NCBI GenBank assembly: GCA_947599925.1
Contig: CANQFT010000001.1
Location: 62,001-126,000, forward strand
Direction of reading: 5' to 3'
From: an uncultured Oscillospiraceae bacterium
GTDB lineage: Bacteria > Bacillota > Clostridia > Oscillospirales > Oscillospiraceae
Length of the DNA stretch: 64,000 nucleotides
The first letter of the stretch is position 1. Each line of letters begins with the position of its first letter. A program made the translations under genes and the position numbers. The notes beneath the pieces are model-generated. The model did no database searches. It was not told where the DNA came from and saw only the letters and a list, made by a program, of their open reading frames with translations. Below are positions 2,891 through 39,830 of the stretch, piece by piece.

Positions 2891-2999
2891 CATAAGCGGC
2901 GGCGCTGTGCAACGCCCCCGGCGCGGGCGGCGCCATTCGGTTGATTTTTTGCCGGGGATATGGTAGGATACAGTCAGTTCCAGCGGGGAGGTGAGCGGC

Positions 3000-3860
3000 G
3001 TGAAGCGGCTTTGGGAGAGCGCGCCGGTGCGTTTTGTCCGGGAGATGGTGGGCATCTACTTCGACAAACACGTGGCCCGGGCGTCGGCGGCGCTGGTGTA
3101 CTGGCTGATCCTGACCATTTTCCCGCTGCTGATCTGCCTGAACTCCTTCATCGCCTGGCTGGAGGTGGACGTGGCCTCGGCCCTGGAGGTGCTGGAGCCC
3201 ATTTTGCCCGCGGGACTGCTGAGCGTGGTGGAGGACTACCTCTACTACGCCGACGTCACCGCCGGGGAATCCCCCGCCTTTTTCGCCGTGGGCGTATTCA
3301 CCATGGTGGTGTTCGCCTCGGCGGCGGTGCGGAGCCTGATGGACATCATGGACGAGATATACCAGCGCAAGGGCTATGGCCCAGTGGTGCGCGTGGTCAT
3401 CAGCGTGGGCTTCTCCCTGGCCTTTTTGGTGGTCATCTACCTCTCCATGGTGGTGGTGCTCACAGGCACGCGGCTCTTCCACGTGCTGGAGGACCGGCTG
3501 GGGCTGAAATTTCTCAGCTGGCTGCTGGACTGGCCCTGGCTGAAGTTCGCGCTGCTGTTTGGCACGGTGTTTTTGCTTATCAGCCTCATCTACCTGGTGG
3601 TGGCCCCGCCGGGAAAGCCCAGAGCGCCGGTGTTTTTGGGCGCCCTGGTCACCTCGGCGTGCCTGGTGGCGGCCTCGGCGGTCTTCTCGCTGTTCATGCG
3701 CTTTTCCAGCCGCTATTCCCTGATCTACGGCTCTCTGGCCTCCCTGATCATCCTGCTTTTGTGGCTCTATTTGTGCGGAAATGTGCTGATTTTGGGGAAT
3801 GTTTTCAACTGCGTGCGCTACCGGCGGAAAAAAGAGAAAAATCTTTCAAAAAACCCTTGA
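3000..3860 (+). CDS. YihY/BrkB family inner membrane protein
   Basis: Multi-TM protein with ASAALVYWLILTIFPLLICLNSF and IYGSLASLIILLLWLYLCGNVLILGNVFN; GTG start with GGAGGT upstream. Confidence 0.85.
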   Translation: MKRLWESAPVRFVREMVGIYFDKHVARASAALVYWLILTIFPLLICLNSFIAWLEVDVASALEVLEPILPAGLLSVVEDYLYYADVTAGESPAFFAVGVFTMVVFASAAVRSLMDIMDEIYQRKGYGPVVRVVISVGFSLAFLVVIYLSMVVVLTGTRLFHVLEDRLGLKFLSWLLDWPWLKFALLFGTVFLLISLIYLVVAPPGKPRAPVFLGALVTSACLVAASAVFSLFMRFSSRYSLIYGSLASLIILLLWLYLCGNVLILGNVFNCVRYRRKKEKNLSKNP

Positions 3861-3885
3861 CACCGTCCCCAGACTTTGGTAGAAT
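3857..3885 (+). promoter_or_regulatory. Sigma-A type promoter for the S10 operon
   Basis: TTGACA - 17 nt - TAGAAT; the -35 overlaps the yihY stop codon; next gene is rpsJ. Confidence 0.75.
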
Positions 3886-3920
3886 AATCGAGCGCCTGTG
3901 TGGGCGCAGTCTGCGATGAT

Positions 3921-3956
3921 GTAGGAGATTGCTCAGTTTTCTGAGGTAACTTCTAC
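3921..3956 (+). promoter_or_regulatory. Stem-loop in the S10 operon leader
   Basis: GTAGGAG(A)TTGCTCAG-TTTT-CTGAG(G)TAACTTCTAC pairs over about 15 bp with two bulges. Confidence 0.55.
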
Positions 3957-4155
3957 GGAGTATGTCCGTCAATCGGGCGGCTGAGAGGACCTATTTCATG
4001 GGCGTATATCGTCCGGATATGGGAAACAGTCGGCTTCTCGCGCCGGCTTTCTTCATGTCAGGAAGTGATACGCACGGAAACGTGGATAGAGATTCTCACC
4101 GATACGAAGCAGGACAGACCACAACACACTTCGTATTTCAAGGAGGAACGAGCAA

Positions 4156-4470
4156 ATGGCAGCCCAAAAAGAAATAATCCGCATCCGCTTGAAGGCCTAC
4201 GACCACCAGCTCATCGACCAGAGCGCCGAGAAGATCGTGGAGACCGCCAAGCGCACCGGGGCCAGCGTCTCCGGCCCCATCCCCCTGCCCACCAAGAAGG
4301 AAGTCGTCACCATCCTTCGGGCCGTCCACAAGGATAAGGACTCCCGGGAGCAGTTTGAGCGCCGCACCCACAAGCGCCTCATCGACATCCTCAAGCCCTC
4401 CCCCAAGACGGTGGAGGCCCTGATGGCCCTGGAGCTGCCCGCCGGCGTGGAGATCGAGATCAAGCTCTGA
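4156..4470 (+). CDS. rpsJ: 30S ribosomal protein S10
   Basis: [49 protein letters not shown]. Confidence 0.98.
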
Positions 4471-4601
4471 TCCGCCCGCCGCCAACTTTGTTGTACCGCG
4501 TCTGCCTGAGCGATACGGGCAGGCAGGTCATGTTGGCCGAGCAACGGGGGACGCCCCCGCCTCGCCCAACCAATAACCTTAATTAAGGAGGAAGAAAACC
4601 A

Positions 4602-5327
4602 ATGGAAAAGGCCATTATCGGCAAGAAGGTCGGCATGAGCCAGATCTTCGACGAAGCCGGCAAGGTCATCCCGGTCACCGTCATCCAGGCGGGCCCCTGC
4701 ACCGTGGTGCAGAAAAAGACCGAGGACAAAGACGGCTACAACGCCGTCCAGCTGGGCTACGAGGACGTGGCGGAAAAGCGCCTGTCCAAGCCCGAGGTGG
4801 GACACCTGAAAAAAGCGGGCAGCGACCTCAAGCGGGTGCTCCGGGAGTTCGACCTGGACAACTACGAGGAGCTGAACGTGGGCGACGTCATCACCTGTGA
4901 TGTGTTCGCCGCGGGCGACCGGGTAGACGTGACCGGCATCAGCAAGGGCAAAGGTTACGCCGGCGTGGTCAAGCGCCACGGCTTCCACGTCCAGAAGGTG
5001 ACCCACGGCGGCGGCCCCATCCACCGTCATCCGGGCTCCAGCGGCCCCGCCACCGACCCCAGCCGGGTCTTCAAGGGCACCAAGAAGGCCGGGCACATGG
5101 GCGCCGAGCAGGTCACGGTCCAGAACCTGGACGTGGTCCAGGTGGACGAGGAGCTGGGCCTCATCGCCGTCTGCGGCGCCATCCCCGGACCCAAGGGCGG
5201 CGTGGTGCTGGTGAAGTCCAGCGTCAAGAAGCTCATCGAGAAGAAGGGCGAGGCCGGCGTCTCCAGCAACCCGCAGAAGGCTTCCGCCCGTATCAACCCG
5301 CAGAAGGCCTCTGCGCGTAATAAGTAA
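4602..5327 (+). CDS. rplC: 50S ribosomal protein L3 (C-terminal tandem NPQKASAR tail)
   Basis: [32 protein letters not shown]. Confidence 0.98.
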
Positions 5328-5344
5328 GAAAGGAGAGAAACACA

Positions 5345-5968
5345 ATGCCTAAAGCGAATCTTTACGATATGTCCGGCAAGAAGATCGGCGACGTGGAGCT
5401 CTCCGACGCCATCTTCGGCATTGAGCCCAACACCTATGTAGTCCACGACGTGGTGAAAAACCACCTGGCCAACTGCCGGCAGGGTACCCAGAGCGCCCTG
5501 ACCCGCGCGGAGGTGGCCGGCGGCGGCAAGAAGCCCTGGCGTCAGAAGGGCACGGGCCGCGCCCGGCAGGGCTCCACCCGCGCGCCCCAGTGGACCCACG
5601 GCGGCGTGGTCTTCGCCCCCAAGCCCAGGGATTACAGCTACGCCCTCAACAAGAAGGTCAAGCGCCTGGCCCTCAAGTCCGCCCTCTCCGCCAAGGCCGC
5701 CGAGGGCAACGTGCTGGTGGTGGACGATCTGAACCTGGACGCCATCAAGACCAGCCAGGTCAAGCGGTTCCTGGACGCCGTGGGCGCCAAGAAGGCCGTG
5801 CTCATCACCCCGGAGGTCCGGGAGAACGTCTACAAGTCCGCCCGCAACATCCCCGGCGTCAGCACCACCACCGCTGCCATCCTCAGTGTCTACGACATCG
5901 TCAACGCCAACCAGATCATCGTGGACAAGGCCGCCCTGTCCGTCATCGAGGAGGTGTTCGCGCAATGA
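5345..5968 (+). CDS. rplD: 50S ribosomal protein L4
   Basis: GGGKKPWRQKGTGRARQGSTRAPQWTHGGVVFAPKPRDYS. Confidence 0.98.
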   Translation: MPKANLYDMSGKKIGDVELSDAIFGIEPNTYVVHDVVKNHLANCRQGTQSALTRAEVAGGGKKPWRQKGTGRARQGSTRAPQWTHGGVVFAPKPRDYSYALNKKVKRLALKSALSAKAAEGNVLVVDDLNLDAIKTSQVKRFLDAVGAKKAVLITPEVRENVYKSARNIPGVSTTTAAILSVYDIVNANQIIVDKAALSVIEEVFAQ

Positions 5969-6261
5969 AAACCGCTTACGACATCATCAAGCGCCCCATC
6001 ATCACCGAGCAGTCCATGGCCGACATCGACATGAAGCGCTACGTCTTCGAGGTGGCCAAGGACGCCAACAAGATCGAGATCGCCAAGGCCGTGGAAGAGG
6101 CTTTCGGCGTGAAGGTGGCCAAGGTCAACACCCTGAATATGCAGGGCAAGCTCAAGCGCATGGGCGCCCAGCCCGCCGGCCGCCGGCCCTCCTGGAAGAA
6201 GGCCATGGTCACCCTGACCGCCGACTCCAAGGGCATCGAGCTCTTTGAGAACATGGTGTAA
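5965..6261 (+). CDS. rplW: 50S ribosomal protein L23
   Basis: MKTAYDIIKRPIITEQSM; ATGA overlap with rplD. Confidence 0.97.
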   Translation: MKTAYDIIKRPIITEQSMADIDMKRYVFEVAKDANKIEIAKAVEEAFGVKVAKVNTLNMQGKLKRMGAQPAGRRPSWKKAMVTLTADSKGIELFENMV

Positions 6262-6276
6262 GGAAGGAGAAGAGAA

Positions 6277-7110
6277 ATGGCTATCAAGACTTTCAAGCCC
6301 ACGACGCCTTCCCGCCGCCACATGACCGTGAGCGCCTTTGAGGGCATCGACAAGAAGGCCAAGCCGGAGCGCGGCCTGACCGAGAACCTGAAAAAGCACG
6401 CCGGCCGCAACAGCTACGGCCGCATCACCGTCCGCCACCACGGCGGCGGGAACAAGCGCAAGTACCGCGTCATCGACTTCAAGCGGGACAAGGAGGGGAC
6501 CGCCAAGGTCATCAACCTCCAGTACGACCCCAACCGCTCGGCCAACATCGCCCTCATCGAGTATGAGGACGGGGAGCGCCGGTATATCCTGGCCCCTGTG
6601 GGCCTGAAGGCCGGACACATCATCATGACCGGCGCCGACGCGGACATTCTCCCCGGCAACTGTCTGCCCATCAGCCGCATCCCCGTGGGCGAGATGATCC
6701 ACTGCGTGGAGATCTACCCCGGCAAGGGCGCCCAGCTGGTCCGGGCCGCCGGCGTAGCCGCTCAGCTCATGGCCAAGGAGAACGGCATGGCCCAGGTCCG
6801 TCTGCCCTCCGGCGAGGTCCGCTATATCCGCGAGGAGTGCCGGGCCACCATCGGTCAGGTGGGCAACGCCGACTGGGCCAACATCCAGATCGGCAAGGCC
6901 GGCCGCAAGCGTCACATGGGCTGGCGGCCCACCGTCCGCGGCTCGGTCATGAACCCCAACGACCACCCCCACGGCGGCGGCGAGGGCAAGAGCCCTGTGG
7001 GACGGCCCGGCCCCGTCACTCCCTGGGGCAAGCCCGCCATGGGGTACAAGACCCGCAAGAAGAAGAACCGCACCGAGCAGTTCATCGTCAAGCACCGCAA
7101 CGCGAAGTAA
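6277..7110 (+). CDS. rplB: 50S ribosomal protein L2
   Basis: [18 protein letters not shown]...[38 protein letters not shown]. Confidence 0.99.
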
Positions 7111-7128
7111 GAAAGGAGCGTGTAAACA

Positions 7129-7401
7129 ATGTCCAGAAGTATCAAGAAAGGCCCGTTTTGCGCTCCCGAGCTGCTCAAGCGCGTGGACGAGCTGAACAAG
7201 GCCAACGACAAGAAGGTCCTCAAGACCTGGAGCCGGGCCAGCACCATCTTCCCCTCCTTTGTGGGACATACCTTTGCCGTCCACGACGGCCGCAAGCACG
7301 TGCCCGTGTACGTCACCGAGGATATGGTGGGCCACAAGCTGGGGGAGTTTGCCCCCACCCGCACCTTCAAGGGCCACTCGGGCACCAAGACCGGGCAGTA
7401 A
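7129..7401 (+). CDS. rpsS: 30S ribosomal protein S19
   Basis: [19 protein letters not shown]...[18 protein letters not shown]. Confidence 0.98.
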
Positions 7402-7416
7402 GGAGGGCACAGAGCA

Positions 7417-7749
7417 ATGGAAGCGAAAGCATTTGTGAAATATGTCCGCATCTCCACCCAGAAGGTGCAGATCGTGGCCGACCTGATCCGCGGCAAGGAC
7501 GTGAAGTTGGCCGCCGCCATCCTCCAAAATACGCCCAAGTCCGCCTGTGAGCCCCTGGCCAAGCTGCTCAAGAGCGCCTGTGCCAACGCCGAGAACAACT
7601 TCCACATGGACCCTGAAAAGCTCTATGTGTCCGAGGTGTTCGCCACCCCCGGCCCCATCATCAAGCGGATGCGCCCCAGGGCCCGGGGCCGCGGGTTCCG
7701 CATCAACAAGCGCACCAGCCACATCACCCTCGCGGTGAAAGAGCGCTGA
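7417..7749 (+). CDS. rplV: 50S ribosomal protein L22
   Basis: KYVRISTQKVQIVADLIRGKD...RMRPRARGRGFRINKRTSHITLAVKE. Confidence 0.98.
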   Translation: MEAKAFVKYVRISTQKVQIVADLIRGKDVKLAAAILQNTPKSACEPLAKLLKSACANAENNFHMDPEKLYVSEVFATPGPIIKRMRPRARGRGFRINKRTSHITLAVKER

Positions 7750-7764
7750 GGGAGGAGGAAGAAT

Positions 7765-8676
7765 ATGGGACAGAAAGTCAATCCCCACGGTCTGCGCGTG
7801 GGCGTCATCAAGGATTGGGACTCCCGGTGGTTCGCCTCCAACGAAAAGGTGGGCGACCTGCTGGTGGAGGACTACAATCTCCGCAAGGACCTGAAAAAGC
7901 AGCTCTACGCCGCCGGTGTGCCCAAGATCGAGATCGAGCGCCGGGGCGACAACAAAGTGGTCATCTATCTCCACTGCGCCCGGCCCGGCATGATCATCGG
8001 CAAGGGCGGCGAGGACATCGAAAAGCTCCGCGCCAGCATCGCCAAGCGTCTGGGCAAGGACGTCTCCCTGAACATCGTGGAGGTCAAGAGCCCCGACACC
8101 AACGCCCAGCTGGTGGCTGAGAACATCGCCCAGCAGCTGGAGAAGCGCATCGGCTTCCGCCGGGCCATGAAGAACGCCATGGGCCGGGCCATGCGGATGG
8201 GCGCCCTGGGCATCAAGACCTGCTGCTCCGGACGGCTGGGCGGCGCCGAGATCGCCCGCACCGAGCACTACCACGACGGCACCATTCCGCTGCAGACCCT
8301 CCGGGCCGACATCGACTACGGCTTCGCCGAGGCCGCCACCACCTATGGCCGCATCGGCGTGAAGGTCTGGATCTACAAGGGCGAGGTCCTGAGCCAGACC
8401 CTGCGGACCACCCCGCGCACCATGGACACCACCAAGCCCTTCCGGGACAAGAGTGAGCGCCGGGACCGCCGGGACCGCCGGGACGGGGACCGCCGTGGTC
8501 CCGGTGGCAACCGGGACGACCGCCGCGGCGGACGCTTTGGCGACCGCCGGCCCGCCGGCCCTGTCTACCAGGCCCGTCCCCAGATCGTCACCCCCAAGCC
8601 CGCGCCCGCTCCTGTGGAGGAGGCGCCCGCCCAGGCCGCTGAGGCCGCTGCTCCCGAGGAAGGAGGCCAGGAATAA
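7765..8676 (+). CDS. rpsC: 30S ribosomal protein S3 with long Arg/Asp- and Pro/Ala-rich C-terminal extension
   Basis: [24 protein letters not shown]...; 303 aa. Confidence 0.98.
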
Positions 8677-10333: not shown

Positions 10334-11206
10334 ATGGCTGAGAACAAGACCGAGAAGGTGGAGGAGGCCGTAGAGGCCGTGAAGGAAAAGGTCGAGGAAG
10401 CGGCCCAGGCCGTGGAGGCCAAGGCCGAAGAGGTCAAGGCCAAGGCCGCCAAGGTCAAGGAAGAGGTCAAGGCCAAGGCCGAGGACGTGGCCGAGGACGT
10501 GAAAGCCAAGGCCGCCAAGGTCAAGAAAGACGTGGAAGCCAAGGCCGAGGATGTGGCCGAGGACGTGAAAGCCAAGGCCGCCAAGGTCAAGAAAGACGTG
10601 GAAGCCAAGGCCGAGGCCGCGAAGAAGGACGCGAAGGCGGCGGCCAAACCCGCCACCGACGGTATGCCCAATCTGCGTGCCAAGTACGTCTCCGAAGTCG
10701 CTCCCGCGCTCATGGAGAAGTTTGGCTACAAGTCCGTGATGCAGATCCCCAAGATCGAGAAGATCGTGGTCAACTGCGCCTGTGGCGAAGCCCGGGACAA
10801 CTCCAAGGTCCTGGAAGCCGTGGTGGGCGATCTGGCCGCCATCACCGGCCAGAAGCCGGTCATCACCAAGGCCAAGAAGTCCGTGGCCAACTTCAAGCTC
10901 CGCGAGGGGATGCCCATCGGCGCCAAGGTGACGCTCCGCTCCGACAAGATGTGGGAGTTCCTGGACCGCCTGTTCAGCGTGGCCCTGCCCCGCGTGCGCG
11001 ATTTCCGCGGCATCAACCCCAACTCCTTTGACGGCCGGGGCAACTACGCCCTGGGTCTCAAGGAGCAGCTGATCTTCCCTGAGATCGACTACGACAAGAT
11101 CGACAAGATCCGGGGCATGGATGTGATCATCTGCACCACCGCCAACACCGATGAAGAGGGCCGGGCTCTGCTGGAGCTCATCGGCGCCCCCTTCATCCGC
11201 AGCTGA
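10334..11206 (+). CDS. rplE: 50S ribosomal protein L5 with approximately 110-aa repetitive N-terminal extension
   Basis: Canonical L5 starts near [37 protein letters not shown]; the preceding Lys/Ala/Glu-rich coil is in frame behind the only good RBS (AAAGGAGGG). Confidence 0.95.
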
Positions 11207-23907: not shown

Positions 23908-24090
23908 ATGAAAGCAACTGGCGTCGTAAGACGCATCGACGACCTTGGCCGTATCGTCATCCCCAAAGAGATCCGCCGCACCATGCGTATCCGCGAGGGC
24001 GACCCGCCGCTGACGACGTTGGAACGCTGGGAACGCTTCTGCCTCGGAATGCTCAAACTGGAAAAGCGGGCGGGGTGGGGCGGTACATAG
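23908..24090 (+). pseudogene. spoVT: SpoVT 5' fragment (aa 1-33), continuing into the recombinase 3' tail: attL gene fusion
   Basis: MKATGVVRRIDDLGRIVIPKEIRRTMRIREGDP is the SpoVT/AbrB-family N-terminus; it then diverges to PLTTLERWERFCLGMLKLEKRAGWGGT*. RBS AGGAGG present. Confidence 0.85.
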
Positions 24091-24255: not shown

Positions 24256-24933
24256 ATGCGTATTCTGATCGCCGAGGACGAGATCCCCATCGCCAAGGCC
24301 CTCAAGGCCCTGTTGGAGCGAAACAAGTACACCGTGGACATGGTCCACAACGGCAACGATGCCCTGGACTACATCACCGAGGTCAGCTACGACGCTCTGG
24401 TGCTGGACATTATGATGCCCGGGCTGGACGGGTTGGAGGTCCTCCGCCGGGCCCGCGCCCAGGGAGTCGCCGCCCCCGCCCTCTTCCTCACGGCCCGGAG
24501 CGAGGTGGAGGACCGGGTGACGGGGCTGGACGCCGGGGCGGACGACTATCTGCCCAAGCCCTTTGCCACCGCGGAGTTCCTGGCCCGCGTCCGGGCCCTG
24601 ACCCGCCGCCGGGGAGAGTACGCCCACGCCCTGCTCACCCTGGGCGACCTCACTTTGGACACCGCGGAGTATACCCTGCGGGTGGGGGATGCCCAGGAGC
24701 GGCTGAGCAACAAGGAATACCAGCTGATGGAGCTGCTGATGCGAAACCCCAGGCAGGTCTTTTCCACGGAGCGGCTGATGGAGACGGTCTGGGGCCTGGA
24801 CGCCGAGGCGGATCTGGACGTGGTCTGGACGTACATCGGCTTTTTGCGGAAAAAACTCAAGGCCCTGGGCGCCCATGTGGAGCTGCGGACCATCCGGGGG
24901 CTGGGGTACACGCTGGAGGAGAGCCTATGCTGA
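24256..24933 (+). CDS. OmpR-family response regulator
   Basis: MRILIAEDEIPIAKALKALLER...LDIMMPGLDGLEV...PKPFATAEFLARVRAL plus winged-helix domain. Confidence 0.95.
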   Translation: MRILIAEDEIPIAKALKALLERNKYTVDMVHNGNDALDYITEVSYDALVLDIMMPGLDGLEVLRRARAQGVAAPALFLTARSEVEDRVTGLDAGADDYLPKPFATAEFLARVRALTRRRGEYAHALLTLGDLTLDTAEYTLRVGDAQERLSNKEYQLMELLMRNPRQVFSTERLMETVWGLDAEADLDVVWTYIGFLRKKLKALGAHVELRTIRGLGYTLEESLC

Positions 24934-26421: not shown

Positions 26422-28128
26422 ATGTCTCAAACCTCTGCGCCGGTGAAGGAGAGACGGAAATTTCCGGTCAAGAAGCTGATCAAGTGGGTCGTGCTCCTGG
26501 CCGTGCTGGGCGTGGCCGGGTTTCTGGTCCTGCGGCACTTCACAGCCGGAGAGGGCGACCGCTCCGCCGGAGGCGACGTGGCCCGGATCACCGCACAGGT
26601 GGAGCGGCGCACCATCACCAGCTCTCTGAGCGGCAGCGGCACGCTCCAACCGGCCGCCTCCTATACGGTCACGACCCTGGTCCAAGGGGACATCCTCTCC
26701 GACACCTTCCAGGAGGGGGACCTGGTGGAAGAGGGGCAGGTCCTCTACCAAATCGACAGCTCGGACGCCGCCAACAACATCGAAAAGGCCCAGCTCTCCT
26801 TGTCCCAGGCCCAGAGGAGCTACAACAACACCCTGCAGGACCGCTACATCACCTCCGACGCCTCCGGGCAGGTCTACTCTTTGGAGGTAGAGGAGGGGGA
26901 CAAGGTCAACAACGGCCAGACCATCGCCCTGCTCCGGGACAGCTCGGTGATGACCCTGGAACTTCCCTTCCCCGCCGATGACGCCAAGGGCTTTTTCGTG
27001 GGCCAGACCGCCCAGGTCACTCTGGACGGCTCCTTTGAGGTGCTGACCGGGACGGTGACGGCGGTGGCCGCCACCGACACCGTGGCGGCGGGCAACTCCA
27101 TCCAGCGCGCCGTCACCATCGGGGTGGAGAACCCCGGCGGGCTCTCCACCGGCCAGGCCGCCGCCGCGGAGGTCAACGGCGTGGGCTGCGCGGCCAGCGG
27201 CGTGTTTTCCTACCGCGCCCAGTCCGCCGTCACCGCCTCCGCCTCCGGGACCATCACCCAGCTGAACATCCGGGAAGGGGACTGGGTGACCAGCGGCCAG
27301 ACCGTGGCCGTCTTGGGCGGCGACGACCTGAACAACTCCATCCAGAACGCCCAGGACTCCCTGCGAAACGCGGAGCTGTCCATGGAGAACACCCAGGAAC
27401 AGCTGGAGAACTACACCATCACCGCCCCGGTCAGCGGCACGGTGGTGGACAAGAACAAAAAGGCCGGGGAGACCATCTCCAACGCCAGCGCGGACCAGAC
27501 CCTCTGCACCATCTATGACCTGTCCTATCTGGAGATGACCCTGGCCATCGACGAGCTGGACATCAGCAAGGTGGCGGTGGGCCAGAAGGTCAGCATCACC
27601 TCCGACTCGGTGGAGGGAAAGAGCTACACCGGCGTCGTCACCAAGGTCTCGGTGGTGGGCGCCACCTCCATGGGCATCACCTCCTATCCCGCCACCATCC
27701 GCATCGACGAGACCGACGGTCTGCTTCCGGGGATGAATGTGGACGCGGAGATCGTGCTCAGCCAGGTGGAGGACGCCCTGACCATCCCCTCCGCCGCTCT
27801 GGAGCGGGGGAACCGCGTGCTGATCCCCGAAACCTCTCCCAGCGCAGCCAACGCCCTGGCCGACCAGGAGGCCCCGGAGGGGTACGTCTACGTCCAGGTG
27901 GAGACCGGCGCCAGCGACGACAGCTACATTGAGATCACCTCCGGTCTCCAAGAGGGGGACAGCGTGGCCTACACCCCCGCCACGGGAGAGAGCAGTGAGA
28001 TACCCTTTGGAATGCCCGGCGCCATGGGCGGGATGAATATGCCCGGCGGCGGATCCTTCGGCGGAGAACGCGGCGCCGGGGGCTTCAGCGGCAACCCCAA
28101 CCGGGGCGGGAACTTTGGGGGGCGCTGA
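26422..28128 (+). CDS. Efflux periplasmic adaptor/HlyD-like (MacA/RND-type) with Gly/Met-rich C-terminus
   Basis: Single N-terminal TM, biotinyl-lipoyl-like repeats (GTVVDKNKKAGETI), C-terminal GGMNMPGGGSFGGERGAGGFSGNPNRGGNFGGR. Confidence 0.9.
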   Translation: MSQTSAPVKERRKFPVKKLIKWVVLLAVLGVAGFLVLRHFTAGEGDRSAGGDVARITAQVERRTITSSLSGSGTLQPAASYTVTTLVQGDILSDTFQEGDLVEEGQVLYQIDSSDAANNIEKAQLSLSQAQRSYNNTLQDRYITSDASGQVYSLEVEEGDKVNNGQTIALLRDSSVMTLELPFPADDAKGFFVGQTAQVTLDGSFEVLTGTVTAVAATDTVAAGNSIQRAVTIGVENPGGLSTGQAAAAEVNGVGCAASGVFSYRAQSAVTASASGTITQLNIREGDWVTSGQTVAVLGGDDLNNSIQNAQDSLRNAELSMENTQEQLENYTITAPVSGTVVDKNKKAGETISNASADQTLCTIYDLSYLEMTLAIDELDISKVAVGQKVSITSDSVEGKSYTGVVTKVSVVGATSMGITSYPATIRIDETDGLLPGMNVDAEIVLSQVEDALTIPSAALERGNRVLIPETSPSAANALADQEAPEGYVYVQVETGASDDSYIEITSGLQEGDSVAYTPATGESSEIPFGMPGAMGGMNMPGGGSFGGERGAGGFSGNPNRGGNFGGR

Positions 28129-28130
28129 GC

Positions 28131-28868
28131 ATGGAGGCCCTGATCGAATTTCGCCAGGTCTGTAAGTTTTACCGCATGGGCGAGGAGACGGTGGTGGCCG
28201 CCGACCACATCGACATGACCATCCAGCGGGGAGAGTTCGTCGCCATCGTGGGCCAGTCCGGTTCCGGCAAGAGCACCTGCATGAACATCATCGGCTGTCT
28301 GGACGTTCCCTCCGAGGGGGTCTACCTGCTGGACGGGCAGGATGTGGGCCGGCTCTCCACCAAAAAGCTGGCCGCCATCCGCAACAAGATGCTGGGCTTT
28401 ATCTTTCAGCAGTATAACCTTCTGCCCAAGCAGAGCATTCTGGAAAACGTGGAGGTGCCCTTGATGTACGCGGGCGTGCCCCGGGGAGAGCGGCGGCGGC
28501 GGGCCATGGAGGTACTGGAGCAAGTTGGCCTGGCCGACAAGTACCGCCACCGGCCCAGCCAGCTCTCCGGCGGCCAGCAGCAGCGGGCGTCCATCGCCAG
28601 GGCGCTGGCCGGACGGCCCGCCATCATCCTGGCTGACGAGCCCACCGGCGCTTTGGACAGTCACACCGGCCGGGAAGTGCTGGCCATGCTCCAGGACGTC
28701 CACCGCCAGGGCAACACCGTCGTCCTGATCACCCACGACAACTCCATCGCCTGCGAGGCCCAGCGCATCATCCGCCTGGAGGACGGCCGGGTGGTCTACG
28801 ACGGGGACCCCCGCGCGCCCCAGGCCGTGGTACGCCACCGTTCCGGCGGAGAGGGGGGAGCCCGGTGA
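28131..28868 (+). CDS. ABC transporter ATP-binding protein (MacB-type)
   Basis: [52 protein letters not shown]. Confidence 0.96.
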
Positions 28869-30058
28869 GCATTTTGGAGACCTTCGGCCTGGCCCTGCAA
28901 AATATCTGGGCCAGCAAGATCCGCACCCTGCTGACCATGCTGGGCATTATCATCGGCGTCACCGCCGTGATCGTCATCGTGGGGCTGGGAAACGGGATGC
29001 AGAACTATATGCGCGACTCCTTTGCCTCTCTGGGCACCAATCAGCTCACCGTGATGATCTCCGGCCGCGGCTCCTCCAGAAGCATCTCTGTGGATGAGAT
29101 GTACCAGCTGGTGGAGGATCACGCCTCCTTGCTGGAGGGGCTCTCCCCCACCGTGCCCGTGATGGGGCAGATCAAGGTGGACACCGAGACCCTCTCCTCC
29201 TCCGTCACCGGCGTGGGGGAGGACTATCTGGATATGAAGGGCCTCACCCTGGCCCAAGGCCGGGGGCTCCAGTACGCGGACGTCGCCGAGCGGCGCACCG
29301 TGTGCGTGGTGGGGGCCTATGTGGCCCGGGAGTATTTTCAAAATAACGCCGTGGGCCAGACCCTGCGGGTCAACGGCAGGAAGGTGAACATCGTCGGGGT
29401 CCTGGAACAGCAGGAGGAGGACATGGACGAGGGCGGGAGCGACGACTGCCTCTATCTGCCCTATTCCACCGCCTCTCGCTTCTTCTCCGGCGGGCAGGTG
29501 AGCAGTTATATGGTGACGGTGACCGACGAGGACCGCATCAACGACGCCCAGACCGTCTTAGAGGACGCCCTCTACGCCGTCTTTGGCGACAGCGACTCCT
29601 ACACCGTGTCCAACATGGCGGCGGCGCTGGAGACCATGAACTCCATGATCGGCATGGTCATCACCATCCTGGCCCTCATCGCCGGGATCTCCCTTTTGGT
29701 GGGCGGCATCGGCATTATGAATATCATGCTGGTCTCGGTGAGTGAGCGCACACGGGAGATCGGCATCCGAAAGGCGCTGGGGGCGCGGGAAGGGGTCATC
29801 CTCCGGCAGTTCGTCATCGAGGCGGCCACCACCTCCGGCCTGGGCGGACTGTTTGGCATCGCCCTGGGCTACCTTCTCTCGCGGGTGGCCACCGTGGTGA
29901 TCACCAACCTCACCGAGACGGCCATCACCGTCTCCCCATCCCTGGCGGCGGTGGCCATGGCCTCCGGCATCTCCATCGCCATCGGCGTGCTGTTTGGCTT
30001 TCTCCCCGCGCGCAAGGCGGCCCGGCTCAACCCCATCGACGCTTTGAGATACGATTAA
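28865..30058 (+). CDS. ABC transporter permease (MacB/FtsX-type)
   Basis: NIWASKIRTLLTMLGIIIGVTAVIVIVGLGNGMQNYM...ERTREIGIRKALGAREGVILRQFVIEA. Confidence 0.95.
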   Translation: MSILETFGLALQNIWASKIRTLLTMLGIIIGVTAVIVIVGLGNGMQNYMRDSFASLGTNQLTVMISGRGSSRSISVDEMYQLVEDHASLLEGLSPTVPVMGQIKVDTETLSSSVTGVGEDYLDMKGLTLAQGRGLQYADVAERRTVCVVGAYVAREYFQNNAVGQTLRVNGRKVNIVGVLEQQEEDMDEGGSDDCLYLPYSTASRFFSGGQVSSYMVTVTDEDRINDAQTVLEDALYAVFGDSDSYTVSNMAAALETMNSMIGMVITILALIAGISLLVGGIGIMNIMLVSVSERTREIGIRKALGAREGVILRQFVIEAATTSGLGGLFGIALGYLLSRVATVVITNLTETAITVSPSLAAVAMASGISIAIGVLFGFLPARKAARLNPIDALRYD

Positions 30059-30072
30059 AGGAGTGCTGCTTT

Positions 30073-32277
30073 ATGAAACGATGGATCTCTTTCGCGCTGG
30101 CGCTGTGCCTGTTGACGGCGCTGATCCCGTCCGTACAGGCCGCCGGATCGGACAGCGGGGACGACGCGGTGGCCTGTCTGAAGGCGCTGGACATCTTGGA
30201 GGGGGACGGGACGGGCGATCTGAAGCTGTCCGCGCCAGTCACCCGCGCCGCCTTCGCCAAGCTGTTGGCGGCCACCTCTCCCTACCGGGACGACCTGGGC
30301 GGCCAGGGAGCGGGCTACTCGCTCTTCACCGATGTGAAAAGCGGCCATTGGGCCGGCGGATATATCAAGCTGTGCCTGGATAACGGCTGGATGATCGGCT
30401 ATACCGACGGCTCTTTCCGCCCAGACGACCCCGTCTCCTTGGAGGAGGCGTGTACCGCCGGACTGCGGCTGTTGGGCTATGCCAGCGCCGACCTCTCCGG
30501 CCCCTTCCCCGCCGCGCAGCTCAACAAGGCCGCCGCCGTGGGACTGCGGGACGGCCTCGCCGCCCAGCAGGGCCAGGAGCTCACCCGTGAGGAGTGCGTC
30601 CGGCTCTTTTACAACCTCCTCACCTGCAAGACCCCGCAGGGCCAAGTCTACGCCTCCACGCTGGGCCTCCCGCTGGACAGCGACGGGGAGGTGGACTACC
30701 TGGCGGCGGTGAAGGAGGACCTGGAGGGGCCCTTCCTCAGCGGGGAGACCGAGCCCGCCCTGCCCGCCGCTCCAGAGGTGATCTACCTCAACGGCCAGCG
30801 GGTGTCCGACATCCTCTGGCAGAAGGACGATGTGTACTACTACGCCCACGGCTACCTGTGGGTCTACCGTGAGCCGGTCTACGGCCAGATCTCCGCGCTG
30901 AACCCCACCGCGGCCGACCCGGAGACGGTGAGCGTCAACAACAAGACCTATACGCTGTCCGGCAGCGCGGTGAAAGAACAGCTCTCCGCCCTGGGCTCCA
31001 GGGCGGTGGGGGCCAGCGTGACGCTGCTGCTGGGCATGGACGGCCAAGTGGCCGCCGTCCGCGCCGTCAGCGGGCCCTTTGTGGCGGGGGATGCCGACAC
31101 GCTGGGCTTTGCGCCCCGGACGGTCTACCGGGACGGCGCGCTCTCCAACAGCGCCGCGCTTTCCAAGTACGACGTCTACTATTATAGCGCCGATGAATCC
31201 GCCCTTTGGATCTACACCGACCGGGTCTCCGGCAGGATCCAGGCGCTGACGCCCAGCCTGTCAGCCCCCACCGCCGTCACCATCTCCGGCCAGAGCTACA
31301 CCCTTGCCACCGACGCCCTGTCCCGGAAGCTGTCCAGCCTCAACGGCAAGTGGACAGACCGGTTCGTCACCCTGCTTTTGGGCATGGACGGCACGGTGGT
31401 GGAGGTGCTGACCGACGAGGCGGTAGAGGCCACCTACTACGGCGTGGTGCAGTCGGCTGTCAAGACGGCGGCGGACGGCGCGGTGGAGTGGCAGATCACC
31501 CTGCTGTGTACCGATGGCCGCCAGCACACCTTCTCCGCCGGCGCCGACAGGACCTGGGAGACGGGCGACCTGGCCCGCGTGACGGTGGACCAGGACGGGG
31601 CGGAGTTTGAGTCTCTCAGGAGGCGCGCCCTCTCCGGCACAGTGGACGCCGGCGCCTCCAAAGCGGGCAGTTACGCCCTCGCCGACAACGTCAAAGTCCT
31701 GGACGTGGACGAGGACGGAGACGGCGGGGCGGTGGAGCGCTCCGAGCTGGCGGGGCTGGCCCTCACGGAGAGCAACGTGCGCTACTACGAACTGAACGAC
31801 AGCGGCCAGGTGGAGCATCTGATCCTGCAAAACGCCACGGAGCTTTTGTGGGAGCACGGCCTGTTGACCAAAGTGGAGAGCAGTTCCCGCGACTCCATGA
31901 GCAGCACGACCCAGTACACCATCCTGATCGACGGCCAGAGCCGGACCTACTCCCTCAGCGGCCAGAGTTTCCCCGTCACGGCGGGCCAGGGCGTGGCGGT
32001 GCGCTTCTCCGCCGCGGGCGCGATCGTGGGGATGCGCGCCCTGACCGCGGTGGAACTGGCCGAGGTCCGGCCCTCCTCCGGCGCCGCCGTGGGCGCCGAC
32101 GGCCAGAGCTATGACTTGGCGGGCGAGGTGAGCGTCTGCCTGCGGGCCGCGGACTGGAACTACTACGCCCTGGAGCGGGAGGACCTCAAGACCCTGAGCG
32201 CCGACGACTACACCTTGACCGGCTACTACGACACGGCCCAGGGAAAGCTCCAGGTCATCCTGGCCCGACAAAAATAA
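30073..32277 (+). CDS. Secreted SLH-domain protein
   Basis: Signal peptide MKRWISFALALCLLTALIPSVQA; FTDVKSGHWAGGYIKLCLDNGWMIGYTDGSFRPDDPVSLEEA. Confidence 0.8.
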   Translation: MKRWISFALALCLLTALIPSVQAAGSDSGDDAVACLKALDILEGDGTGDLKLSAPVTRAAFAKLLAATSPYRDDLGGQGAGYSLFTDVKSGHWAGGYIKLCLDNGWMIGYTDGSFRPDDPVSLEEACTAGLRLLGYASADLSGPFPAAQLNKAAAVGLRDGLAAQQGQELTREECVRLFYNLLTCKTPQGQVYASTLGLPLDSDGEVDYLAAVKEDLEGPFLSGETEPALPAAPEVIYLNGQRVSDILWQKDDVYYYAHGYLWVYREPVYGQISALNPTAADPETVSVNNKTYTLSGSAVKEQLSALGSRAVGASVTLLLGMDGQVAAVRAVSGPFVAGDADTLGFAPRTVYRDGALSNSAALSKYDVYYYSADESALWIYTDRVSGRIQALTPSLSAPTAVTISGQSYTLATDALSRKLSSLNGKWTDRFVTLLLGMDGTVVEVLTDEAVEATYYGVVQSAVKTAADGAVEWQITLLCTDGRQHTFSAGADRTWETGDLARVTVDQDGAEFESLRRRALSGTVDAGASKAGSYALADNVKVLDVDEDGDGGAVERSELAGLALTESNVRYYELNDSGQVEHLILQNATELLWEHGLLTKVESSSRDSMSSTTQYTILIDGQSRTYSLSGQSFPVTAGQGVAVRFSAAGAIVGMRALTAVELAEVRPSSGAAVGADGQSYDLAGEVSVCLRAADWNYYALEREDLKTLSADDYTLTGYYDTAQGKLQVILARQK

Positions 32278-33096: not shown

Positions 33097-33363
33097 ATGC
33101 GGTTGGAGATCAACATCCGGGACCGTGACAAACTTGTGGAGATCTGGCTGACCAATGCCGAGAAAGACGACGAGGACCTGCAACGACGGCTCAGGCCCCT
33201 CTATCAGACCTGCCAAAAGCAGGGCTATCTGGCCGCTGTATTCAAATCGGGCAACGAGGGCCTGACCGCCCTCACCGGGACCCTGCTCACCTCCAACCGC
33301 AGGCGCATGGCGAACCAGGCGGCGCGCCAGGACGCTCCGCGGCCCATGGAACTCGCCCGGTAG
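33097..33363 (+). CDS. Small hypothetical protein, possibly mobile-element associated
   Basis: MRLEINIRDRDKLVEIWLTNAEKDDEDLQRRLRPLYQTCQKQGYLAAVFKSG...; RBS GGGGGAG. Confidence 0.5.
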   Translation: MRLEINIRDRDKLVEIWLTNAEKDDEDLQRRLRPLYQTCQKQGYLAAVFKSGNEGLTALTGTLLTSNRRRMANQAARQDAPRPMELAR

Positions 33364-33450: not shown

Positions 33451-34485
33451 ATGGATAACAAGAGCGACGAGCTGATGAAAGTCGGCCAGGTACTGCTGTA
33501 CAGTGATAGCAACGGAAAAGAATTTGTGAGCGTGGTTTTCCAGGATGAGAACTTCTGGCTGACCCAAAGCGGGATGGCCCAGCTTTTTGCCTGTACCCCG
33601 GAGAACATTCTTCAGCACCTGAAAAACATCTACGCCGAGGAAGAACTGGAGCGGGAGGCAACGACTAAGAAATTCTTAGTGGTTCGCCAGGAGGGCGCCC
33701 GCCAGGTCCGGCGCGAACTGGAGCATTACAACCTGGACGCCATCATCGCCGTGGGCTACCGGGTGAACTCCAAGAAGGCCACCCGCTTCCGCCAGTGGGC
33801 CACCAGGACCCTGAAGGAGTACATCCAGAAGGGCTTTGTCCTCAACGACGAGCTGATGAAAAACGGCCGCCCCTTCGGCAAGGACTACTTCGACGAACTC
33901 CTGGAGCGCATTCGGGAAATCCGGGCCAGCGAGCGCCGGGCCTATCAGAAGATCGCCGACATCTTCGAGCAGTGCAGCTACGACTACGACAAGCGGAGCG
34001 ATACCACCAAGGCTTTTTACGCCTTTGTCCAAAACAAGCTCCACTTCGCCGTCACCGGCCAGACCGCCGCCGAGTTGATCGCGGAGCGGGCCACGCCGGA
34101 CAGCCCCACCATGGGCCTGACCACCTGGAAGGCCGCTCCCGATGGCAAGATCCTGAAAAGCGATACCCTCATCGCGAAAAACTACTTAAACGAGAAGGAG
34201 CTCTCCCGTCTCAACCGGCTGGTCACCATGTTCATCGACTACGCCGAGCTGATGGCGGAGGACCAGGTGCCCATGTCCATGGCGGACTGGCTGGCCGAGG
34301 CCGACCGCTTCCTGGCCCACAACCGCCAGAAGGTGCTGGAGGGCAAGGGCCGCGTTTCCCACGAGGAGGCGGCCAAAAAGGTGGGGGACATCTATGAGGA
34401 GTTCCGCAAAAAGCAGGACGCCGCCTACATCTCCGAGTTTGACCGCCAGACGGCGAAATACCTGAAGGGTGAAACCGATGATTGA
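33451..34485 (+). CDS. RhuM family protein
   Basis: SVVFQDENFWLTQSGMAQLFACTPENILQHLKNIY...EHYNLDAIIAVGYRVNSKKATRFRQWATRTLKEYIQKGFVLND. Confidence 0.9.
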   Translation: MDNKSDELMKVGQVLLYSDSNGKEFVSVVFQDENFWLTQSGMAQLFACTPENILQHLKNIYAEEELEREATTKKFLVVRQEGARQVRRELEHYNLDAIIAVGYRVNSKKATRFRQWATRTLKEYIQKGFVLNDELMKNGRPFGKDYFDELLERIREIRASERRAYQKIADIFEQCSYDYDKRSDTTKAFYAFVQNKLHFAVTGQTAAELIAERATPDSPTMGLTTWKAAPDGKILKSDTLIAKNYLNEKELSRLNRLVTMFIDYAELMAEDQVPMSMADWLAEADRFLAHNRQKVLEGKGRVSHEEAAKKVGDIYEEFRKKQDAAYISEFDRQTAKYLKGETDD

Positions 34486-36676
34486 AAAATTTGCCATCGC
34501 CGGATACTGCCGCATCTCGGTGGACGAGGAGCTGGACCGGGACAACACCTCCATCGAAAACCAAAAGGCCATCATCGGGGACTTTGTGAAGCGCAAATTC
34601 CCCGGCTCTGCCCTGACCTTCTACGAGGACCGGGACAAGTCCGGCTATACCTTCGACCAGCGGCCCGGCTACCAGGCCATGCGCCGGGAGCTGATGGGCC
34701 ACAAAAAAGACATCCTCATCATCAAGGACTTCTCCCGCTTCTCCCGCCGCAACTCCCGCGGCCTGGTGGAGTTGGAGGACCTGCGGGACGCGGGGGTGCG
34801 GATCATCTCCATCGGGGACAACATCGACTTCCCCAACGACGACGACTGGCTGAAGATCCAGTTTCAATTCCTCATCAACGAGATGCCCGTCACCGACGCC
34901 AGCAAGAAGGTGAAGTCGGTGATCCAGCGCCGCCAGCAGGACGGCCAGTGGCTCTGCGCCGCCCCCTACGGCTATATCCTCAACAAGCGCCGGGAATTTG
35001 AGATCGTCCCCACCGAGGCGGAGATCGTCCGGGAGATCTTCCGGCTCTACATCGGCGGCTGGGGCTACAAGAAGATCGCCAACCATCTCACCGACCGGGG
35101 GATCCCGACTCCTCGGATGGCCGAGCGGGAGCGGAGAGAGGCGGCGGGGGAGGAGTGCCGGCGTCCGGCCAAGCCCCTCTGGGCCATTGTCACCATACAG
35201 GGCATCCTGGACAACGACTTTTATATCGGCACGCTCCGCCAGGGAAAGTACACCCGCGGGAAGATCAACGGCAAGGACGTGCGGCGGGACGAGGCGGAAC
35301 ACATCGTCATCGAGCGCCACCACCAGCCCATCCTCGACGACCGCACCTTCGCCACCGCCCATGCCCTGCGCCAGACCCGATCCACCGCCCACTACCGGGG
35401 CCAGAAGAAGTACGACAACGCCTACTCCGGCTTCCTGTTCTGCGGGGACTGCGGCTCTCCCATGTTCGCCATGAGCCGCCGGGACCTCAGGGACGCCTAC
35501 CGCTGCGGGACCTACCACCGCCGGGGGCTGAAAGGCTGCACCAGCCACCACATCCGGGTGGACAAGCTGGACGAGCTGTTGAAGCGGTATATCCGCAAGG
35601 TCCGGGACAACTCCGCCGCCATGCTGGACCGCCTCAACGCGGACTTGGACAAGGAGCAGGAGGACGTGGCCGAAACGGAGCAGGCCGCCGCCCATCTGGA
35701 AGCGGTGCTGGCGGACCTGCGGGACGAGCTGAAAGCCACCAAGCGCCAGCGTGTCCGGGACGTGATGCGCCATCCGGAGCAGGAGGAGACGCTGGAGGCG
35801 ACCTACGACGAGTTGGAAGCCGACCTCCTCCGCCGGATCGAGGGCGTCCAGAGCCAGATCGCCATGGCCCAGGACAGGCGCAACACCATCATCCGGGTGA
35901 ACCGGGCGGCAAAGACCGCCCAGGAGGTCTTTGCCGACATACTGAACAAGCCCAGGCTGGACCGCGGCGACCTCCAGCTCATCATCGAGAAGATCATGGT
36001 CTACGAGGACCACATCGAGGTGCAGCTCAAAGCCGACGTGGACAGCATCCTCCGCTGCGGCGAACTGCCGGAGGAGCCGGCCGGGGAGCGGCCCGCGGGG
36101 GCGGCGGCCATGGCCCCCGCCCCCATCCCTCTGGACCGGCGGGCGGCGGACGACTACGAGATCCAGATCACCCAGTCCAGCGATAAGCACGGCGACAAGG
36201 TCTTTACGGTCAAAGTCGTCAGGGAGGGCGACCCGCTGGAGATCTTCACCGACAAGGACGGCGGCGTGGTGTTCAAAAAGTACAGCCTGATGGGTGGGCT
36301 CAGCGACTTCGCCGGGCAGATGTGCGAGACCCTGTCCAAACTCTCCGGCCTCACCGCCGTCATCACCGACCGGGACAGCGTGCTGGCCGTCTCCGGCGCC
36401 TGCCGCAAGGAACTCTCCGAGCGGGCGGTCAGCGAGGACCTGGAAAAGCTGATGGAGGGCCGCCAGCTCTATGTGTCCCAGGACGGCCAGAGCCATGTGA
36501 CCATCTGCCGGGACAGCGAGCAGTTCCAGGCCATGGTGTGCGCCCCCATCCTCTCCGGCGGCGACGTGCTGGGCGCGGTCCTCTTCGTGCAGGAGGAGGG
36601 AAAAACCGCCGGCGAGGCCGAGGTGAAAATGATCCAGACCGCCGCCGGTTTCCTCAGCCGGCACATGGAATCTTAA
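34478..36676 (+). CDS. Large serine recombinase fused in frame at its C-terminus to the SpoVT C-terminal (GAF-like) domain
   Basis: AIAGYCRISVDEELDRDNTSIENQK..., IIKDFSRFSRRNSR, zinc-ribbon CGDCGSPMFA, then from 36224 EGDPLEIFTDKDGGVVFKKYSLMGGLSDFAGQ...AAGFLSRHMES = SpoVT C-terminus. Confidence 0.92.
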   Translation: MIEKFAIAGYCRISVDEELDRDNTSIENQKAIIGDFVKRKFPGSALTFYEDRDKSGYTFDQRPGYQAMRRELMGHKKDILIIKDFSRFSRRNSRGLVELEDLRDAGVRIISIGDNIDFPNDDDWLKIQFQFLINEMPVTDASKKVKSVIQRRQQDGQWLCAAPYGYILNKRREFEIVPTEAEIVREIFRLYIGGWGYKKIANHLTDRGIPTPRMAERERREAAGEECRRPAKPLWAIVTIQGILDNDFYIGTLRQGKYTRGKINGKDVRRDEAEHIVIERHHQPILDDRTFATAHALRQTRSTAHYRGQKKYDNAYSGFLFCGDCGSPMFAMSRRDLRDAYRCGTYHRRGLKGCTSHHIRVDKLDELLKRYIRKVRDNSAAMLDRLNADLDKEQEDVAETEQAAAHLEAVLADLRDELKATKRQRVRDVMRHPEQEETLEATYDELEADLLRRIEGVQSQIAMAQDRRNTIIRVNRAAKTAQEVFADILNKPRLDRGDLQLIIEKIMVYEDHIEVQLKADVDSILRCGELPEEPAGERPAGAAAMAPAPIPLDRRAADDYEIQITQSSDKHGDKVFTVKVVREGDPLEIFTDKDGGVVFKKYSLMGGLSDFAGQMCETLSKLSGLTAVITDRDSVLAVSGACRKELSERAVSEDLEKLMEGRQLYVSQDGQSHVTICRDSEQFQAMVCAPILSGGDVLGAVLFVQEEGKTAGEAEVKMIQTAAGFLSRHMES

Positions 36677-36902
36677 GTAAACCCGCCAAAGGCGATAAGT
36701 GCAGTTTTTCGGCATTTATCGCCTTGTTTTTATGTCAACAGCGAGTTTTGTCGAACGATTTTCCGACTTTTTTGCGATTTTTATATTGCGGGAACTGTAA
36801 AAATATGGTATATTTACTCCACCGGACAGGGCCCGGACCGAGCCCCTCCGCCGGGGAAAACAGGCGCGGCCCTGGCCGCCGGAAATGGGGGAATACCACA
36901 TG

Positions 36903-38079: not shown

Positions 38080-38916
38080 ATGGGATACGAAGCCGAAAAA
38101 GCAACGTTCAGCCTACAGCTGAAAGAATTTGCCGCTACTTTGGGATCAGCCATCGCCAAAAACGATGAATGGACGATTCGCGGCTTTATCGACATATTCA
38201 AGAATGTATATACCATTTCAACGGATACAAAAATTGTATCTAAACTCCTTGAATTACATCTGTTTCCCTTTTTTCTTTCTTTCGCAGAAGAAAAAGGATA
38301 CGACATTGAACTTGCTACCCATCAGAATTGGTATCCTGACCTGACCTTTCTGTCAAAGGCAGATCCGCAGATCAAGTTTGCGGTAGATTTGAAAACTACA
38401 TATAGGGATGAAGCCTATCCGGGGTTTTGTAACGGATTTACATTAGGATCACACGGCGAATACTTTGTAAAGCGTACAAGCACAAAGAACATACAGTACC
38501 CTTATGGGGAATACAGCGGTCACTTCTGTTTGGGAATCATCTATTCTCGCGCGGTTCTGGATAAGAGCGAGGAAACGCATATATACTCCCTTGACGAATT
38601 AGGAACCATTCCGCCGGTGATCAAGGATTTTTTGTTCTTTGCTGAAGAGAAATGGAAGATAGCCAGCGATAAAGGCGGAAGCGGTAACACTGCAAATATC
38701 GGCAGTATTCAAAAAATCGAGGATATTCTCCGCGGCAACGGTGTATTTGCCAAAGCCGGAGAAGAATTATTCGACGACTACTGGGCCAATTTTGGAAAGC
38801 TTAAGATCCGTGTGGATGGAAAGTGGAAAAAACTGTCGTCCTTCGAGGAATATTTGCGCTATCGTAGGCTCTCACTCGACTTGAACAACCCAAAAGCGGT
38901 AAAGAGGAGAGCGTGA
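38080..38916 (+). CDS. EcoRV-family type II restriction endonuclease
   Basis: QNWYPDLTFLSKADPQIKFAVDLKTTYR, STKNIQYPYGEYSGHFCLGIIYSRA, EEKWKIASDKGGSGNTANIGSI parallel EcoRV blocks (YPDFT..IDIKTTY; TKNIVYPF; KWVIAGDLAGSGNTTNIGSI, recalled). Confidence 0.85.
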   Translation: MGYEAEKATFSLQLKEFAATLGSAIAKNDEWTIRGFIDIFKNVYTISTDTKIVSKLLELHLFPFFLSFAEEKGYDIELATHQNWYPDLTFLSKADPQIKFAVDLKTTYRDEAYPGFCNGFTLGSHGEYFVKRTSTKNIQYPYGEYSGHFCLGIIYSRAVLDKSEETHIYSLDELGTIPPVIKDFLFFAEEKWKIASDKGGSGNTANIGSIQKIEDILRGNGVFAKAGEELFDDYWANFGKLKIRVDGKWKKLSSFEEYLRYRRLSLDLNNPKAVKRRA

Positions 38917-39830
38917 TGAACGATAAGGTATTTGTTCCGCCGATAAAGACACAAGGGATAAAGACAAAATCGGTTCCTCTGATTCAGCGGAGTGTCGTAA
39001 TGGACGAAGAGTCCGTATGGATAGAGCCTTTTATGGGCTCTGGTGTGGTTGGCTTCAATCTTGAGCCGAAGCGCGCCGTATTTGCGGATATAAATCCGCA
39101 TATCATAGCGTTTTATACTCAAATCAAAAACGGTGTTCTTACGCCCTGCATAGTGCGTGCGTTCCTTGAGCGCGAAGGACGGCTATTGGAGCAAAAAGAT
39201 GCCGAGCACTATTATTTTATTCGAAACCGGTTTAACCGGCAGCATGACCCATTGGACTTTTTGTTTTTGAACCGCGCTTGCTTTAACGGAATGATTCGAT
39301 TCAACAAAGATCATGACTTTAATGTTCCGTATGGACATAAGCCACAGCGATTTACAAAAGCTTATATCACAAAAATCGTGAATCAGGTCGCTCATGTGTC
39401 GCAGCTGTTGCAAAGACATTCTTGGGAGTTCCTTTGTCAATCATTTGAACGCACGATTGCCATGGCGACGGAACGTGATTTTGTCTATTGCGATCCGCCA
39501 TATATCGGCCGCCATGTAGATTATTATGACAGTTGGGATGAAGGCTCGGAGATCATGCTACACACCGCGTTAGTTGCCAGCAAGGCAAGGTTCATGTTGT
39601 CAACATGGGATCACAACGACTTCAGGGTAAACGAATATATCCAAACACTATGGGGCGATTGCCAAAAAATCACGCGGGAGCATTTTTATCATGTCGGTGC
39701 AAAGGAGATAAACAGAAACCCTGTTGTGGAAGCGCTGTTGACCAATTATACGATTACCGGGGCACAGGGTCACCGGGCATTGGAAGATCCTCAGATCACA
39801 CTATTTGAAATGGCACCTGCGTTTGGCTGA
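38916..39830 (+). CDS. Dam-family N6-adenine DNA methyltransferase (cognate of the EcoRV-like enzyme)
   Basis: IEPFMGSGVVGFNL, FLFLNRACFNGMIRFN, DFVYCDPPYIGRHVDYYDSWDEG. Confidence 0.9.
   Translation: MNDKVFVPPIKTQGIKTKSVPLIQRSVVMDEESVWIEPFMGSGVVGFNLEPKRAVFADINPHIIAFYTQIKNGVLTPCIVRAFLEREGRLLEQKDAEHYYFIRNRFNRQHDPLDFLFLNRACFNGMIRFNKDHDFNVPYGHKPQRFTKAYITKIVNQVAHVSQLLQRHSWEFLCQSFERTIAMATERDFVYCDPPYIGRHVDYYDSWDEGSEIMLHTALVASKARFMLSTWDHNDFRVNEYIQTLWGDCQKITREHFYHVGAKEINRNPVVEALLTNYTITGAQGHRALEDPQITLFEMAPAFG

Follow-up and report, generated by a model that had tools for sequence, protein, structure and literature searches.

A spoVT-targeting mobile element family in the Oscillospirales with a serine recombinase whose C-terminus would be exchanged upon integration

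In the genome of an uncultured Oscillospiraceae bacterium the sporulation regulator gene spoVT is split by an element whose large serine recombinase gene runs in frame into the part of spoVT that encodes its GAF-like domain. Sequence comparisons place this element in a mobile-element family of spore-forming gut bacteria that is widespread in the Oscillospirales. The circular form of the element would encode a 613-aa recombinase in place of the 732-aa recombinase-SpoVT_C fusion, and the C-terminal tail that distinguishes the shorter form is conserved as protein across the family. We favour an account, with a probability of roughly 0.6, in which this family targets spoVT, the tailed form of the recombinase integrates, the GAF-tailed form excises and a small element-encoded protein acts as the directionality factor.

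Results

An element inserted into spoVT carries a recombinase fused to SpoVT_C

In the window, i.e. the whole stretch of 64,000 nt analysed here, codon 32 of spoVT is the insertion point of a 12.2 kb element; all parts of the split locus listed below lie on the plus strand. The 13-bp core GAGGGCGACCCGC is present twice, as attL at 23995..24007 and as attR at 36224..36236, with a spacing of 12,229 bp and a putative crossover dinucleotide GA at 24001-24002 and 36230-36231, respectively. At attL, the SpoVT N-terminus MKATGVVRRIDDLGRIVIPKEIRRTMRIREGDP (23908-24006) is followed by the element-coded residues PLTTLERWERFCLGMLKLEKRAGWGGT (n=27). The resulting 60-aa ORF (23908..24090, stop codon at 24088-24090) begins with 33 aa that belong to the AbrB-type domain (E 8e-7 for the MazE/AbrB-type fold in Pfam) and continues in frame into 27-28 element-coded residues.

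At attR, domain matches and the structure model identified the ORF at 34478..36676 as a large serine recombinase fused in frame to SpoVT_C, which represents the integrated isoform of 732 aa. Its Resolvase, Recombinase and Zn_ribbon_recom domains are followed by SpoVT_C at residues 608-731 (E 7e-38); a coiled coil, with long helices at 361-489 in the model, completes the architecture typical of large serine recombinases, and S14 of the YxRxS motif is invariant. The protein resembles the SCC recombinases CcrA/B/C and the TnpX-type transposon recombinases, CcrB being the closest curated model (E 2e-32) and the catalytic domain matching TnpX, but membership in either type was rejected, as both matches fall far under the curated cut-offs.

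The present tail of the recombinase is the C-terminal, GAF-like part of the host spoVT gene (36233..36676), which matches 2w1t (E 6e-41). In the structure model of the fusion, whose global confidence is low (pTM 0.37), it forms a separate unit (pLDDT 82-90) on a disordered linker. Most probably the enzyme tolerates the domain as a passenger attached through a flexible linker, and modulation is the most that we would ascribe to it; its predicted separate folding fits a tolerated passenger and a regulator equally. Constraint on SpoVT_C showed no clear difference between fused and intact genes, the insertions being mostly recent, and decay of SpoVT_C was absent in carriers. The intrinsic terminator of spoVT (36689..36725; hairpin of -21.3 kcal/mol, z -5.2, followed by a T-run) would end the transcript of the integrated recombinase gene as well.

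In silico joining of the outer halves across the core GAGGGCGACCCGC yielded a complete SpoVT, and joining of the inner halves yielded the 613-aa recombinase. Excision is accordingly predicted, from these junctions, to restore spoVT and the recombinase gene exactly. Interruption of spoVT and its precise restoration on removal were found at the junctions of 28-35 elements, as in sporulation gene-intervening elements, and the location of attP within a coding gene, which gives two encoded products, corresponds to integration-dependent gene switching. The first-pass annotation had placed attP inside the recombinase gene, with the C-terminus exchanged on integration and two isoforms encoded, and had suggested a survey of homologues for paired C-termini. 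Both the junction reconstruction, in which the 613-aa form ends exactly as given there, and the survey, which detected conserved paired C-termini, bear this out. In G058, a congener of the window genome, spoVT is intact; between these two genomes the region around spoVT and spo0A (23811-50040 of the window versus L141/L142) is inverted.

The fusion recurs in a horizontally mobile family

A scan of genome contigs retrieved 80 relatives, 78 of which extended far enough to be informative. In 75 of these 78 (76/79 when the window is counted) the recombinase is fused in frame to SpoVT_C at GDP|LEI, as in the window, and since this arrangement recurs in relatives outside the window, the split and the fusion are not due to chance. 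Distant fragments from viral and phage records (51-66% identity) that reach past the junction are fused too, and separate SpoVT N- and C-terminal fragments were detected in nearly all of the 40 carrier genomes searched. Carriers include a cultured strain, Flintibacter muris DSM 110149 (locus L016). At other target sites the recombinase gains a short unrelated peptide instead of the GAF domain.

Elements with the two spoVT halves on a single contig range from 6.4 to 80.7 kb in size. The smallest element, of about 6.4 kb (L107 in G276, 855-8199), contains two AAA ATPase-like genes, a small ORF and the recombinase gene. At two loci (L098 and L071, G282/G022:C23) the order of the SpoVT N- and C-terminal parts is wrong for a simple insertion, with element parts located outside and 18 kb of other DNA in between, an arrangement that we attribute to probable misassembly or rearrangement. 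In Angelakisella massiliensis (L080:10001-12407) a family recombinase devoid of the attP end is encoded just upstream of an intact spoVT.

SpoVT_C was found in 122 of 141 family genomes and was fused in 23 of these 122 (19%), which belong to 17 genera with patchy occurrence within genera. Recombinases that are 85-88% identical are attached to SpoVT_C domains of just 37-44% identity, and between the window and the congener G251 the RhuM proteins are 98% identical, compared to 85% for Spo0A. These mismatches imply that the elements move horizontally. A single ancient insertion followed by vertical inheritance was ruled out by the discordant divergence of recombinase and SpoVT_C together with the patchy presence within genera.

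attP overlaps the recombinase gene and a displaced, conserved tail

The attP site reconstructed from 34 elements spans ~50 bp and, as is characteristic of serine integrase attP sites, has imperfect inverted repeats that flank a central dinucleotide. It is strongly palindromic at the GA centre (G^A), with 16.3 of 24 matches as opposed to 3-10 at other centres; the corresponding values were 9.5 for attB, 10.3 for attL and 7.0 for attR. Its left arm (36206..36232), palindromic with 24004-24026, is formed by the last codons of the element-coded part of the recombinase (TVKVVREGD), in which synonymous sites are conserved (pS 0.20). An uninterrupted attP was detected neither in 401 family genomes nor in viral contigs, and a match in G688 was dismissed as contiguous attP because it represents a decayed copy. 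A complete free element was absent from phage and plasmid collections, and the nearest matches among phage records were short fragments, one of them already fused.

The right arm of attP corresponds to the first 8 codons of the recombinase tail PPLTTLERWERFCLGMLKLEKRAGWGGT (24004..24087), which integration splits from its gene. Tails were recovered at attL for 35 elements. They share the consensus TLxxWERFCFGMLDLAKRxGW, have free third positions beyond codon 8 and are predicted to form a helix (pLDDT about 78). Codons 9-25 showed a pN/pS of 0.27 (31 elements), in comparison to 1.04 and 1.45 in the other frames; values for the recombinase were 0.16 in the catalytic domain, 0.25 in the zinc/recombinase region, 0.33 in the coiled coil and 0.77 in the linker before attP. 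Directly after the tail stop codon nucleotide identity falls to the background of 0.26, marking the end of homology. The linker before attP takes 25 distinct lengths in 58 loci, and the frame is kept in all of them. Virtually all elements examined retain the displaced tail in frame, with its protein sequence conserved. Taken together, the constraint on codons 9-25, the end of homology at the stop codon and the 25 in-frame linker lengths indicate that the free, tailed recombinase is very probably a real isoform that is lost upon integration. At the level of sequence evolution, selection maintains a recombinase reading frame that continues across attP into the tail, and the clearest signature of selection at the protein level is that of the swapped-out tail rather than of the GAF domain.

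In spoVT, the tail is in frame both with the recombinase (in the circle) and with the SpoVT N-terminal fragment (in the integrated state). In G290, where spoVT is uninterrupted, the element has an altered core and lies beside lepA; no SpoVT N-terminal fragment exists there, and the recombinase is the only product whose frame the tail shares. This arrangement favours the recombinase as the product that needs the tail; the G290 element, 97% identical to L029, was retargeted only recently. In arrays of G565 and G061 the tail persists on SpoVT N-terminal ORFs with no recombinase nearby, so the tail may matter in this ORF as well. They consist of four (L158, G565:C23:38000-56000) or 2-3 (L157, G061:C31:98000-109000) tandem SpoVT-N-plus-tail units that precede an intact spoVT; unrelated genes spanning about 1-4 kb separate the units, and each unit has a repeat of the spoVT upstream region. 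These arrays look like non-autonomous cassettes that re-supply the 5'-end of spoVT and so leave this gene intact.

A small ORF is a candidate directionality factor

Serine integrases catalyse recombination of attP with attB, and the reverse reaction needs a recombination directionality factor (RDF). A small ORF of about 87-88 aa at 33097..33363 is a candidate for this function on the basis of its position and co-occurrence. It was located upstream of the recombinase gene in 62 of 76 loci, was present in 13 of 14 fusion carriers versus 1 of 67 others (Fisher p 5e-13) and is retained in the smallest element; no known family was found for it. The earlier suggestion that the tail swap serves as a built-in RDF substitute is weakened, because the small ORF tracks the recombinase almost perfectly, and is the better RDF candidate.

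Directly upstream of the recombinase gene, and overlapping its start by 8 nt (ATGATTGA), lies a RhuM-family gene (33451..34485; Pfam Virulence_RhuM, E 2e-107), which occupies this position in 31 of 81 loci. The cargo, assigned by domain matches, consists of an OmpR-type response regulator (24256..24933) followed in the ORF list by a histidine kinase to 26219, of MacA/HlyD-like, ABC ATPase and MacB/FtsX-like efflux genes (26422..30058), and of an SLH-domain protein (30073..32277). Diverged relatives of this efflux-SLH cluster (26422-32277) are situated a few kb from the chromosomal spoVT in two genomes of another genus (L143/L144, L146).

A MobA-type relaxase (PF03432) was found near the recombinase in all 6 relatives tested, and its occurrence in several relatives suggests that the family elements are probably mobilizable or conjugative. 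No relaxase was recognised in the window element, which may itself not be self-mobile. An initial clustering had counted a relaxase in 66 loci; this count was rejected since the cluster was mixed with the small ORF, and only relaxases tested by Pfam are claimed. Outside the element, the window encodes an EcoRV-like restriction endonuclease (Pfam E 2e-120) and a D12-class adenine methyltransferase just downstream of spo0A (38080-39830), and 33-nt tandem repeats at 10336-10645 encode a lysine/glutamate-rich repeat protein.

Discussion

We propose that the attB of the family recombinase is codon 32 of spoVT and that its attP is formed by the 3'-end of the recombinase gene itself. Integration would split spoVT, leave the last ~25 recombinase codons to end 6-80 kb away at attL, where they adjoin the SpoVT N-terminal fragment, and let the recombinase ORF continue into SpoVT_C. 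On arrival in a new cell the circle would give rise to the tailed enzyme, and this form would integrate. In a carrier cell the GAF-tailed enzyme would be the only recombinase of the element and would have to perform excision, because carriers hold no other element recombinase and no uninterrupted attP occurs in the 401 genomes, yet the elements spread. Loss of the tail would mark the enzyme as belonging to an integrated element, and a lowered or redirected activity is the probable consequence; the small 87-88-aa protein is the likely directionality factor.

Direction may also be set by the swap. In the strict form of this idea, which we consider quite unlikely, the tailed enzyme recombines attP with attB only and the GAF-tailed enzyme recombines attL with attR without any factor, perhaps gated by a SpoVT ligand or by oligomerisation. 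The isoform present would then always fit the reaction that the element needs next; constraint on the tail matches that on the DNA-binding region, and engineered serine integrases are reversed by C-terminal fusion of an RDF, switching to attL x attR (PMC5737554). However, the association of the small ORF with the recombinase and its retention in the 6.4 kb element argue for a separate factor, and the short peptides acquired at other target sites are not GAF domains. It is improbable that a free-only C-terminal helix drives integration and that the GAF replacement converts the enzyme into an excisionase responsive to a sporulation or metabolic signal of the host. Still less probable is that the exchange is a neutral by-product of the overlap of attP with the 3'-end of the recombinase gene, neither tail being of consequence. 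It is true that attP sites beside or within integrase genes are common, that agreement of frame between attP and attB occurs by chance in about 1 of 3 cases and that SpoVT_C constraint in the fusions is not clearly unlike that of intact copies, but we regard this reading as very improbable in view of the conservation of the tail as protein past the attP arm and of the frame kept across the fast-evolving linker.

Alternatively, the tail might act after integration, within a small SpoVT-N-tail protein that the spoVT promoter would express and that could be, for instance, a modified regulator; the connection of the tail with the recombinase would then be incidental. The ORF is intact in nearly all carriers, and in G565 four copies persist in cassette-like arrays that contain no recombinase gene. 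Nevertheless, the structure model of the fragment reached a pTM of only 0.33, the fragment terminates within the AbrB fold and lacks the strands needed to complete this fold, and neither the 25 linker lengths of the recombinase, all in frame without a stop, nor the tail in G290 that lacks SpoVT-N is explained, which makes this alternative distinctly improbable. Programmed excision during sporulation that restores SpoVT, in the manner of skin in sigK, would be compatible with our preferred account and is unlikely. A sporulation gene is restored exactly, SpoVT_C has not decayed in carriers, the host keeps spoIVA along with a sigG-like gene (its best score against the sigG model, 417.6 bits, does not reach the curated cut-off of 457), and SpoVT is essential for sporulation in Bacillus cereus (PMC5061766). 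In B. subtilis, however, SpoVT acts in the forespore (PMC5061766), where excision would strip the germ line of the element, whereas excision of skin is confined to the mother cell (PMC5025042). This forespore role speaks against mother-cell-timed excision of the skin type, as do, against programmed excision in general, the great diversity and horizontal mobility of the elements.

The proposed exchange has precedents. In the Myxococcus phage Mx8, attP lies inside int, integration alters the C-terminus of the integrase by providing a new 3'-end, and the altered enzyme is active with changed specificity (PMC6070905). Mx8 differs in being a phage and in involving no sporulation gene according to this review, whereas the spoVT elements gain a whole host sensor domain and the end that they lose is conserved across a large element family. 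The archaeal 'suicidal' tyrosine integrases of the SSV type likewise have attP inside the integrase gene, which integration disrupts and excision restores; self-disrupting recombinases of this kind were described as exclusively archaeal, and, besides being tyrosine recombinases, they differ in that the SSV gene is broken while that of the spoVT elements is re-tailed (PMC8371274). In the immunity system of mycobacteriophage BPs, integration at an attP within a coding gene removes a C-terminal tail and changes the behaviour of the product, but the switched gene encodes a repressor and the removed tail is a degradation tag (PMC4557955). The sections considered here of the reports on skin, SPbeta and gin describe large serine recombinases whose precise excision reconstitutes a sporulation gene, a separate RDF for skin-Cd, SPbeta and gin, and no fusion of the recombinase to a host protein (PMC5025042, PMC4191935, PMC5595907). 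No report of spoVT elements was found in the open-licence literature. Integration-dependent integrase ends are thus already known, and the serine-recombinase version inside a sporulation regulator appears to be new.

The spoVT elements are a naturally occurring and widespread system, easy to reconstitute, whose serine integrase would swap a conserved peptide for a host domain each time it acts. With two matched proteins, the contribution of integrase C-termini to the control of direction becomes directly testable, and the tail, should it govern direction or stability, would be of use for integrases applied in genome engineering. For the Oscillospirales, spoVT emerges as an apparently unreported hot spot for mobile elements within a regulator of spore formation, occupied in 19% of those sampled family genomes that encode SpoVT_C.
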